A DNA stretch of 64,000 nt from a bacterium. GTDB taxonomy: Bacteria; Hinthialibacterota; Hinthialibacteria; H5-UNCL2. Positions 24,951 to 36,164 of the stretch are shown here, piece by piece. The DNA lies in the NCBI GenBank assembly GCA_015075175.1, contig JABTUV010000001.1, forward strand, positions 620,001 to 684,000, written 5' to 3'. The position numbers and the translations under genes were made by a program. The notes below the pieces were generated by a model. It worked only from the letters and a program-made list of their open reading frames with translations, was not told the origin of the DNA and ran no database searches. Every line of letters begins with the position of its first letter. The stretch's first letter is position 1.

Positions 24951-25379
24951 ATGCGTCGCTATTGGTTGATGAAGTCCGAACCGGGCGCCTACTCCATCGA
25001 CGACCTGGCGCGCGATGGAAAGACGGCGTGGGAAGGCGTGCGCAACTACCAGGCGCGCAACTTCATGCGCGACGCGATGCGCGCCTGCTCGTATCAGGTT
25101 TATCTTGACGGCGTCCCCCTGCGCCGTCCGCTCGACCTTTATCGCCCCGAATCGGACCGCTACGAGCATCATCTGATGGACTTCTGGCCCGATCCGGGGC
25201 AGTATACTCTGCGTCTTGTCTGCGTCGGCAGGAACGACGCCTCGCTCGGCTTCGACCTGCCGCTTGTGTCGGTGCGCTTGCGCCAGCGTCGTCCCCGCGT
25301 CGCCGAAATCGGCTTGCACAAGCACGACGACTGGCGTTTCGAGCAGTTTCTCTATCAACGCGCGGGAAGAAACAAATAA
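24951..25379 (+). CDS. Chimera: start of an EVE-domain protein fused in frame to the C-terminal module of a GH172 protein
   Basis: 142 residues from the ATG at 24951. Residues 1-45 (RRYWLMKSEPGAYSIDDLAR, GKTAWEGVRNYQARNFMRDA) are the exact opening of an EVE-domain protein, a fold that binds modified nucleotides and normally spans about 150 residues. From about residue 46 the sequence switches to YQVYLDGVPLRRPLDLY, HHLMDFWPDPGQYTLRLVCV and SVRLRQRRPRVAEIG. This is the C-terminal beta-sandwich found at the end of three GH172 proteins downstream. The switch lies near 25085-25090 and keeps the frame. The simplest explanation is loss of the EVE 3' part and most of a GH172 gene, by real deletion or by assembly collapse between the repeated GH172 genes. 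A functional protein is doubtful. Confidence 0.75.
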   Translation: MRRYWLMKSEPGAYSIDDLARDGKTAWEGVRNYQARNFMRDAMRACSYQVYLDGVPLRRPLDLYRPESDRYEHHLMDFWPDPGQYTLRLVCVGRNDASLGFDLPLVSVRLRQRRPRVAEIGLHKHDDWRFEQFLYQRAGRNK

Positions 25380-25395
25380 TCGGGAGGTAATGTCG

Positions 25396-26978
25396 ATGCA
25401 TCGCTGGATTCTCGCCGCAGTCCTGTTGGCGCCGTGCGCCGGGGAAGCCGGGCTTTCCGAGCTTCTGCGCTGGGAGGAGGGGCGCAGCATGCGCGCCGGC
25501 TCCAACGTATGGTACCCGGACGATCTTCACAACATCAGAAACAACTGGGACCGCGAGGACCGCATCGAGCCGGGCGTGACCTACACGCTCGCCGAACTGC
25601 AAGGGCCGGGCATCATCACCCACATGTGGTTCACGTTTCTCCATGAGCCGCACGTCTGGGCCGCGACGGACGGCGCCGCCAACCACCAGGAGATGCTGCT
25701 GCGCATCTATTGGGACGGGCGGCCCCATCCCGACGTGGAGGCGCCGGTTGGGGACTTTTTCGCCAATTGCTTCGGACGCCGCATGGAGGTCATCAGCCAG
25801 CCGGTGATCGTCGAGGACGCCGACTCCTACAACTGCTGGTGGAAGATGCCCTTCAAGAAGTCGGCCCGCATCGAGATCGTCAACCAAAGCAAGAAGCCCA
25901 TCCGCAAGCTGTACTCCAACATCGACTGGATCAAGAAGAAGAGCCTGCCCAAGGATACGCTGTATTTCTGCGCCCGCTATCGGCAGGAGTATCCGGCCGT
26001 GAACGGCCGCGACTATCTCGTGCTGGAGACCGAGGGCAAGGGCTATTACGTGGGGACGGTGATGGCGGTGCGCACGCGCAGCCCGGCCTGGTTCGGCGAG
26101 GGCGACGAGAAGATTTACATCGACGGCGAGGAGCTGCCGTCCATTCGCGGCACGGGTACGGAAGACTATTTCCTATCCGCCTGGGGCCTGAAGGAAAACC
26201 TGATGCCGTACTTCGGCGTGCCCTACGTCAACAATCCCATGCGCATCATCGGACAGAAGTACTGCGCCTATCGCTGGCACACGGAAGACCCGATCGTCTT
26301 TTCCAAGAGCATCAAGGTGACGTTCGAGCATTTCGGCTGGATTTCGGGCGACGAGAACAAGGAGAACCGCCCGCACAGTTGGAACGAGCGCGAGGACGAT
26401 TACGCGACGGTGGCCTTCTGGTACCAGGATGGCCCGAGCAAGCCCTTTGCGCCCACCACCACGGCGGAGGAGCGCAAGCTGCCCAGTCTCGACCGGGTAG
26501 TCGTGTGGGGCAAGGACCTGCGGGGGGCGGAACGCAGCGCCGGGCGCGTGCGCGTGGAAACCGGCGCGCTCTATCTGGAGTCGGGCGGGCAACTTCACTT
26601 CTCGCCGCGCGACGAGGACGCTTTTATTGAGGTCCCCTTGGAGGTAGCCAGGAAAGAGCCTCTGCGGCTCATGGTCGAACTCTCGCGCACGCCCGACGGC
26701 GGCGTCTGGCAGCCTTATCTGAACGGCGTGCCCATCGGCGAGCCGCTGGACACCTACCGCGCTGATCCGGACTTGTGGGAGTTTCACCTCATGGACTTCT
26801 GGCCGGATCCGGGGAAGTACACGTTCAAACTGGTGTGCGTGGGGCGGAATAAAGCCTCGGACGGGAACACGCTGGGGCTTAACAGCGTGCGCCTGCGCGA
26901 GCGCCGCCCGCGTGTCGCCGCCTCTCGGTTGCACTGCAAGGCTGGGACTGGCGCAAGGAGCAGATGCTCTATCGGTAA
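25396..26978 (+). CDS. GH172 (DUF2961) secreted glycoside hydrolase 1, frameshift near the 3' end
   Basis: About 527 residues. The ATG at 25396 is eight bases behind GGGAGG; an ATG at 25390 is too close to it. Signal peptide MHRWILAAVLLAPCAGEAGL. The GH172 core includes GRSMRAG, GPGIITHMWFTF, EAPVGDFFANCF, EDADSYNCWWKMPFKKSARI, WFGEGDEKIYIDGEELPSI and GTGTEDYFLSAWGL. Glu235 and Glu256 are 21 residues apart, the same spacing as the acid/base and nucleophile reported for the characterised GH172 enzyme. A C-terminal beta-sandwich (EPLRLMVELSRT, MDFWPDPGKYTFKLVCVGRN) follows. A frameshift near 26930 hides the true end DWRKEQMLYR and the stop at 26976-26978. Characterised relatives act on alpha-D-fructofuranoside or D-arabinofuranoside links. 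Confidence 0.87.
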
Positions 26979-34457: not shown

Positions 34458-34535
34458 GGCCTCCGGCTTTCGTTGACAAGCGCGCACCCTCAATGCTACG
34501 AATTCCTCCCAACCTACTCGTGGGGGTGTCCATCC

Positions 34536-36164
34536 ATGCTACGTTTTTCTCAATTGCGACGCGCCCTGCCCGGCTTGTGGGCGGCGGCGCTCATCCTCCT
34601 GGCCGGCAGCCTGAGCGCTTCCGGATTCATGGAAGACCTGGCCAAACCGCACGACGGCCGCTCCATGCGGGCGACTTCCGCCCATCGCATCGGACCCGAC
34701 GGCAAGTACGATCCGCAGGGCGAGTTCGATCCCAACAGCAACTGGGACAACAAGAACGTCGAGCCGGGAGCGACCAAGGTGCTGATGGAGGAGAAGGGAC
34801 CCGGCGTGGTGACCCACATCTGGATCACGTTCCTGGGGCCGGAGCCGCACCAGTGGGCGCGGCGCGGCTCCGCCGACCATCAGGAGATGCTCCTGCGCAT
34901 CTACTACGACGGCGATACCAAGCCCGGGGTCGAGGCCCCCGTCGGCGATTTCTTCGCCAACGCCTTCGGCAAGCGCAGCGAAGTCATCAGCCTGCCCGTG
35001 GTGGTCGAGGACGCCGACTCCTACAACTGCTTCTGGCACATGCCCTTCAAAAAGAGCATCCGCATCGAAATCGAGAATCAGAGCGAACGGCCCATCAGCC
35101 TGCTTTATTACAACATCGACTGGATCAAGAAAGACAAGCTCCCCGACGACACCCCCTACTTTTACGCCCAGTATCGCCAGGAGTATCCGGCCGTGTCGGG
35201 ACGCGACTACCTGATCCTGGAGACCGAAGGCAAGGGCCACTACGTGGGCACGGTCCTCTCGGTGCGCACGCGCAGCCCATCCTGGTTCGGCGAGGGCGAC
35301 GAGAAAATCTACATCGACGGCGAACCCAAGGCTTCCATCTGGGGCACGGGCACGGAGGACTACTTCCTGTCGGCGTGGGGGCTTCAGACCACGAGTACCC
35401 CGTATTTCGGCACACCCTATTTCGATCAATGGGGGATCGTGGGCGGCCATACCAGCGCCTATCGCTGGCACATCAACGACCCGTTGGTATTCAACAAGAG
35501 CATCAAGGTCACCATCGAGCACCTGGGCTGGATCGCCAAGGACGAGCAGGGGACGGACCCGGACGGCTGGACGGAGCGGGAAGACGACTACTCCAGCGTG
35601 GCCTTCTGGTACCAGACGGGCCGGCCGACGTTTACGGCGCGCGCGCCCCATGCGCGCGAGCGGACGCTGCCCAACCTGGACCAGATTTACCGGGTTTCGC
35701 ACTTGACCGACGCCGCCTATCACGGCGTGGGTGAGGCGCGCACCCAGCGTCGCATCCTGGCTTATCCCGAGGGGCAGTTGCACTATGTTCCCGGTCAGGA
35801 GGGCGGCGCCTGGATCGAGATTCCCTTTGTCATCGAGAAAAAGGAGCCGGTGCGACTCGTGCTCAACATGACCCGTTCGTATGATTACGGCCGCTACCAA
35901 GCGTACCTGAACGGCGTCAAGCTGTGGGACCCACTGGACTTCTACAACGAGCGCACGGACAACTGGGAGTATCATCTGCTGGACTTCTGGCCGGATCCGG
36001 GTACGTACAAGCTGCGGTTGGAGTGCGTGGGCAAGAATCCGCGCTCGGAGGGTTACGGGCTGGGCATCGAGTCGATCCGGTTGCGCCAGCGCCGCCCGCG
36101 CGTCGCCCAGTACGCGACCGACAAGAATCGCGACTGGCGGACCGACCCGGTCCTCTATCGGTAG
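34536..36164 (+). CDS. GH172 (DUF2961) secreted glycoside hydrolase 4
   Basis: Intact 542 residues from the ATG at 34536, behind a GGGGGTG Shine-Dalgarno-like stretch. It is the only full-length copy without a frameshift. Signal peptide ALPGLWAAALILLAGSLSAS. Core motifs are GRSMRATSAHRIGPDG, GPGVVTHIWITF, EAPVGDFFANAFGKRS, EDADSYNCFWHMPFKKSIRI, WFGEGDEKIYIDGEPKASI and GTGTEDYFLSAWGLQT, with candidate catalytic residues Glu253 and Glu274. The C-terminal beta-sandwich has RYQAYLNGVKLWDPLDFY and LDFWPDPGTYKLRLECVGKN and ends NRDWRTDPVLYR. It provides the reference for locating the true ends of the damaged copies. Secreted; substrate unknown, with D-arabinofuranosyl or fructofuranosyl linkages as family precedent. 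Confidence 0.92.
   Translation: MLRFSQLRRALPGLWAAALILLAGSLSASGFMEDLAKPHDGRSMRATSAHRIGPDGKYDPQGEFDPNSNWDNKNVEPGATKVLMEEKGPGVVTHIWITFLGPEPHQWARRGSADHQEMLLRIYYDGDTKPGVEAPVGDFFANAFGKRSEVISLPVVVEDADSYNCFWHMPFKKSIRIEIENQSERPISLLYYNIDWIKKDKLPDDTPYFYAQYRQEYPAVSGRDYLILETEGKGHYVGTVLSVRTRSPSWFGEGDEKIYIDGEPKASIWGTGTEDYFLSAWGLQTTSTPYFGTPYFDQWGIVGGHTSAYRWHINDPLVFNKSIKVTIEHLGWIAKDEQGTDPDGWTEREDDYSSVAFWYQTGRPTFTARAPHARERTLPNLDQIYRVSHLTDAAYHGVGEARTQRRILAYPEGQLHYVPGQEGGAWIEIPFVIEKKEPVRLVLNMTRSYDYGRYQAYLNGVKLWDPLDFYNERTDNWEYHLLDFWPDPGTYKLRLECVGKNPRSEGYGLGIESIRLRQRRPRVAQYATDKNRDWRTDPVLYR

Follow-up and report, generated by a model that had tools for sequence, protein, structure and literature searches.

A genomic cluster of four GH172 (DUF2961) genes with conserved catalytic positions and a candidate role in furanoside cleavage

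The window, by which we mean the whole 64,000-nucleotide stretch of DNA analysed (C1:620001-684000), comes from a bacterium of a poorly known uncultured lineage, with a genome of 4.98 Mb in 49 contigs that is 84% complete. As the preliminary description had stated, it carries four DUF2961/GH172 genes within 11 kb, starting at 25396, 27200, 31569 and 34536; all four ORFs pass the curated Pfam cut-off of PF11175 (27 bits), with scores from 127 to 277.2 bits, which places the four proteins inside GH172/DUF2961. The features of the locus are as follows.

24951..25379, + strand: in-frame EVE/GH172 chimera, the 'fifth tail' (EVE and C-terminal module profiles)
25396..26976, + strand: long GH172 copy, w2 (PF11175, 273.5 bits)
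27200..28261, + strand: short GH172 copy with one DUF2961 domain, of a divergent subfamily (MEGNNEVDID...GSED; PF11175, 127 bits)
28258..31521, + strand: frameshifted gene of ~1088 codons, of an uncharacterised family, between GH172 copies (tblastn with a paralogue)
31569..33166, + strand: long GH172 copy, w3 (PF11175, 268 bits)
34536..36164, + strand: long GH172 copy, w4, intact, with a CBM35-like C-terminal module (PF11175, 277.2 bits; structure model)

The locus is a genuine group of new members of a known family, GH172, and is clustered beyond chance, four of the 18 copies in the genome starting within 9.2 kb (P = 0.00015 under random placement). Membership of the cluster in GH172 is firm and, like the conservation of the catalytic machinery, is backed by profile, alignment and fold. 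The N-termini resemble signal peptides on inspection by eye, and the enzymes of the array are probably secreted.

Copy 25396 has a signal-like N-terminus, a DUF2961 double jelly roll and a C-terminal beta-sandwich, a layout that is read from sequence only in the copies other than 34536. Its frame is lost near 26910 and the ORF continues to 27252, so that this ORF end is a run-on and the homologous end lies at about 26976. In copy 31569, DUF2961 is in frame to about 32735, and the C-terminal module follows in a second frame to 33166 (E = 3.9e-56). The C-terminal beta-sandwich that the preliminary description had ascribed to all the long copies is out of frame in copy 31569 and frameshifted at the end of copy 25396. 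The stretch 28258-31521, which shows up as several ORFs, proves to be one gene across three frames when searched by tblastn with a 1070-aa paralogue as query; among 14 genomes of the class, further matches occur in the window's genome only. Neither the pieces of this gene nor the full-length paralogue match any Pfam, NCBIfam or PDB entry except for a weak ThuA-like match, below cut-off, at the C-terminus. A fifth C-terminal module had also been described at 25090-25379; the module is indeed present (profile positions 71-146, the last half, E = 8.7e-32), and this tail shares 56% identity with the C-terminal end of the 34536 protein, but it is preceded, in the same frame, by the start of an EVE-domain gene. 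About the first 45 codons of the latter remain, matching positions 1-41 of the 145 in the EVE profile (E = 1.9e-15), which is the sole EVE match in the genome; the junction would stem from either a deletion or a misassembly. A short repeated intergenic element of the GCCGGCATCCTGCC type follows GH172 copies 25396 (at 27034) and 34536 (at 36166) and recurs at about 48413-48426.

The two glutamates of the EGDE...GTGTED pair, noted earlier in the three long copies with a spacing of 21 residues, align with E270 and E291 of Bifidobacterium dentium alphaFFase1 (active-site positions from PMC8605356); in the 34536 protein they are E253 and E274. Aligned equivalents of both are present in all four copies, with a spacing of 20 residues in the short copy. 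We compared 48 sequences of the long-copy subfamily of 34536, an alignment that is also the basis of the structure model. The alphaFFase1 positions N31, D33, Y187, W267, E270, T288, E291 and D292 are invariant across these homologues, W298 is kept in 47, and the N272 position is an aspartate in 48 of 48; in 34536 numbering, N69, D71, Y191, W250, E253, D255, T271, E274 and D275 are invariant and W281 is found in 47. The tyrosine and Ca-ligand positions contributed by the neighbouring protomer (Y187', N31', D33') are kept in the long copies and incompletely in the short one, which is without the W267 equivalent and probably without the N31/D33 Ca ligands.

Comparison with solved structures leads to the same family. 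For the 34536 protein, the E-values against 4kq7, 8ah3, 7v1v and 8ic8 range from 2.5e-54 to 3.2e-41; the short copy hits these four structures too, though less strongly. The predicted structure of the 34536 protein (pLDDT 81.6; loop 275-306 of low confidence) has the double jelly-roll fold and superposes on each of the four GH172 structures (Z 27.5-28.6). Viral double jelly-roll capsid proteins come lower in this comparison (Z 10-13), a likeness to the GH172 fold that is already known (PMC8812541). Residues 381-519 of the model resemble MiXBM, which binds xanthan (7ehg, Z 14.9), and likewise CBM35 modules (Z 10.3-10.6) and a module from xanthan lyase (Z 14.6).

To place the copies among their relatives, we use a tree of 109 rows made by a quick method, in which 44 of the 106 inner branches are weakly supported. 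The 34536 protein falls in a 65-row clade from Planctomycetota, Verrucomicrobiota, Armatimonadota and others (support 96), and its subfamily shows 62-77% identity across the three named phyla. Copies 25396 and 31569 group with a paralogue of their own genome at C1:983 kb (support 86; inner pair 98), and this group is sister to the 34536 clade. ExoMA1, DgGH172c/BACUNI_00161 and alphaFFase1 are placed elsewhere; since all the array copies lie apart from the characterised GH172 enzymes, transfer of a substrate from these enzymes is weak. The short copy joins none of these groups and has a very long branch to itself; one relative of the class has a full-length homologue at 51% identity that keeps the MEGNNEVDID and GSED motifs, which makes the short copy part of a separate subfamily under constraint.

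The window's genome has about 18 DUF2961 genes (22 matches). The family is found in 14 of 14 genomes of the class, with 1-12 matches each apart from the window's 22; in the 14 genomes to which homologous loci led, the count is 2-29. Among the matches listed, clusters of two or three DUF2961 genes occur in several of the tabulated genomes, and no cluster seen was larger than the present one of four genes in 11 kb. High DUF2961 counts being common in such genomes, we rejected copy number as a special feature of this one; multi-copy GH172 is a habit of the lineage and by itself no sign of a dedicated pathway.

Most of the flanking ORFs at about 5-48 kb were scanned, and no GH183, GH116, endo-enzyme, transporter or sugar-catabolic set lies beside the cluster; the flanks are mostly housekeeping (carB, phosphorylase, subtilase with dockerin, radical SAM, HGLS, acs, S30AE, FeoB, GH20 and others). 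The 'dedicated attack' that the preliminary description had suggested for the locus is not borne out: partner genes are missing from the scanned flanks, frames are broken, and the copies consist of own-genome paralogues plus a divergent copy. Beside the GH172 genes, the subtilase (18367-22200) carries a type I dockerin domain; another neighbour, a protein that looks secreted (33501-34457), has a dockerin-like stretch on inspection by eye. Farther away, the genome holds a GH183 gene at C1:165973. About 50 kb downstream of the cluster, at C1:705-712 kb, it has a pair of ExoMA2-like GH116 genes, one of which is broken into two ORFs; the best PDB match of these GH116 genes is an exo-beta-D-arabinofuranosidase. 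GH183, GH172 and GH116 together make up a D-arabinan-degrading set (PMC10509167).

The neighbourhoods of the 34536 gene in relatives were compared at 80 homologous loci, many of them with short flanks, and partner cases were picked by inspecting nearby genes. GH183 (DUF4185) is found at 2 of the 80, GH116 directly upstream at 3 and GH32 at 1 (adjoining the GH172 homologue at locus L057), while 74 have none of the three. The GH183 protein of locus L075 matches the endo-D-arabinanases 8hhv (E = 3.6e-10) and 8ic1 (2.9e-9), and each of the two genomes with a GH183 neighbour has a single GH183 match, which lies no more than about 3 kb from a gene of the 34536 subfamily. The three GH116 neighbours match the exo-beta-D-arabinofuranosidase 8ic6 (E = 9.6e-107, 3.6e-85 and 2.5e-114) far more strongly than they match glucosylceramidases; with GH116 structures other than 8ic6, the E-values do not go below about 1e-26. 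The earlier proposal of a furanosyl-polymer target is upheld in part: it gains indirect support from GH183, GH116 or GH32 beside homologues at 6 of the 80 loci and from the GH183 and GH116 genes elsewhere in the genome, and loses from the lack of partners in the scanned flanks.

We considered and rejected the idea that genes of the 34536 subfamily sit in a conserved operon, as ORF clustering yielded no neighbour family beyond about 10-15 of the 80 loci; larger ORF clusters were taken as shadow frames of the GH172 gene itself. In a Pfam census of the nearest ORFs, 3-keto-disaccharide hydrolase was the only family in more than three (7 of 99). The window has a 3-keto-disaccharide hydrolase-like gene of its own at 46455-47345, with an in-frame stop codon at 47052-47054. 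The GH32 protein (L057:7741-9927) and two GH116 proteins (L047:2480-5641, L106:3981-7277) encoded beside GH172 have in common a module of ~190 residues with 42-43% identity. Among the papers that we searched, none links GH172 with Planctomycetes.

We propose that the locus is an array of secreted GH172 exo-alpha-D-furanosidases, acting likeliest on D-arabinofuranose, and consider this reading reasonably probable. The array would comprise one member of a widespread subfamily (34536), two own-genome paralogues (25396 and 31569), a divergent single-domain GH172 (27200) and a rearranged remnant, the last being part of another GH172 copy fused to a fragment of an EVE gene. The long enzymes would be exo-acting, anomer-retaining alpha-D-furanosidases with E274 as the nucleophile and E253 as the acid/base, as the alignment suggests, and with an active site formed where neighbouring protomers of a trimer-based oligomer meet, adjacent to a Ca ion. 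The C-terminal CBM35-like module may keep the enzyme on its polysaccharide. The released sugar would likeliest be alpha-D-arabinofuranose, or alternatively alpha-D-fructofuranose. In favour of D-arabinan, we count the GH183 and GH116 genes beside the relatives' homologues and the GH183 and two GH116 genes in the window's genome; against it count the scanned flanks, linkage to D-arabinan genes at only 5 of the 80 loci, and the one locus with GH32 instead, which points to fructan.

That last locus bears on an unlikely alternative, in which the enzymes cleave alpha-D-fructofuranosyl linkages (in difructose anhydrides or at fructan ends) as alphaFFase1 does. The conserved -1 subsite positions of alphaFFase1 would suit such a substrate, as would the GH32 gene at L057; on the other hand, the tree keeps the 34536 subfamily apart from alphaFFase1, and D-arabinan-type neighbours (2 GH183 and 3 GH116) outnumber the single GH32. 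It is quite improbable that the term 'furanosyl' is itself wrong and that the subfamily moved to another substrate or to a binding role: although no characterised member lies nearby in the tree and the short copy has lost the tryptophan and probably the Ca ligands described above, the catalytic, -1 subsite and Ca positions are all kept in long copies across several phyla.

A different question is how much of the array works at all. The frameshifts in copies 25396 and 31569 may be decay and not sequence error, and we give some, rather low, probability to an array that is mostly a decaying duplication, in which only 34536 (and perhaps 27200) is functional, the remaining copies being pseudogenes that serve no joint role. 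The frame changes in these two copies and in the gene between them would agree with this, and the truncated EVE/GH172 chimera fits decay as well; yet the catalytic domains of copies 25396 and 31569 are wholly open and their active sites intact. Moreover, because most of the frame changes coincide with or adjoin short homopolymers or GC-rich repeats, and because the flanking carB (11897-15238) seems to be broken in a similar manner, by frame changes at about 12.7-12.8 kb that compensate each other, assembly errors appear likelier than decay.

Returning to the array of D-arabinofuranose-releasing enzymes, we put forward more tentatively that 34536 represents a conserved multi-phylum GH172 subfamily, a double jelly roll with a CBM35-like module, that removes D-arabinofuranose from environmental polysaccharide. 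If so, the multiplication of GH172 in these bacteria would imply that polymers of the D-arabinan type commonly serve as a carbon source beyond actinobacterial and gut settings. The active site, the CBM35-like module and the GH183/GH116 linkage bear on the degradation of D-arabinofuranose polymers by uncultured Planctomycetota-like bacteria. Only a handful of GH172 enzymes have been tested, and our tree places the four that have solved structures outside the 34536 subfamily.

Among known systems, the fold of the 34536 model resembles DgGH172c of D. gadei (8ah3, Z 28.6) and ExoMA1 of M. arabinogalactanolyticum (8ic8, Z 27.6). Both are exo-alpha-D-arabinofuranosidases whose catalytic glutamates align with the 34536 pair and whose genes sit in D-arabinan clusters (PMC10115798, PMC10509167). 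They differ from 34536 in lying in separate clades, at about 32-35% identity over aligned residues, and their solved chains, being 378 residues long, leave no room for a CBM-like C-terminal module. Bifidobacterium dentium alphaFFase1 (7v1v), a difructose dianhydride I synthase/hydrolase, has the E270/E291 pair, the -1 subsite and the Ca-ligand positions in common with the long copies; however, it belongs to a separate clade, ends in a C-terminal helix instead of their beta-sandwich, and is reported to be without a Sec signal sequence (PMC8812541). MiXBM (7ehg) and the CBM35 modules have the same fold as residues 381-519 of 34536, at about 20% identity or less.
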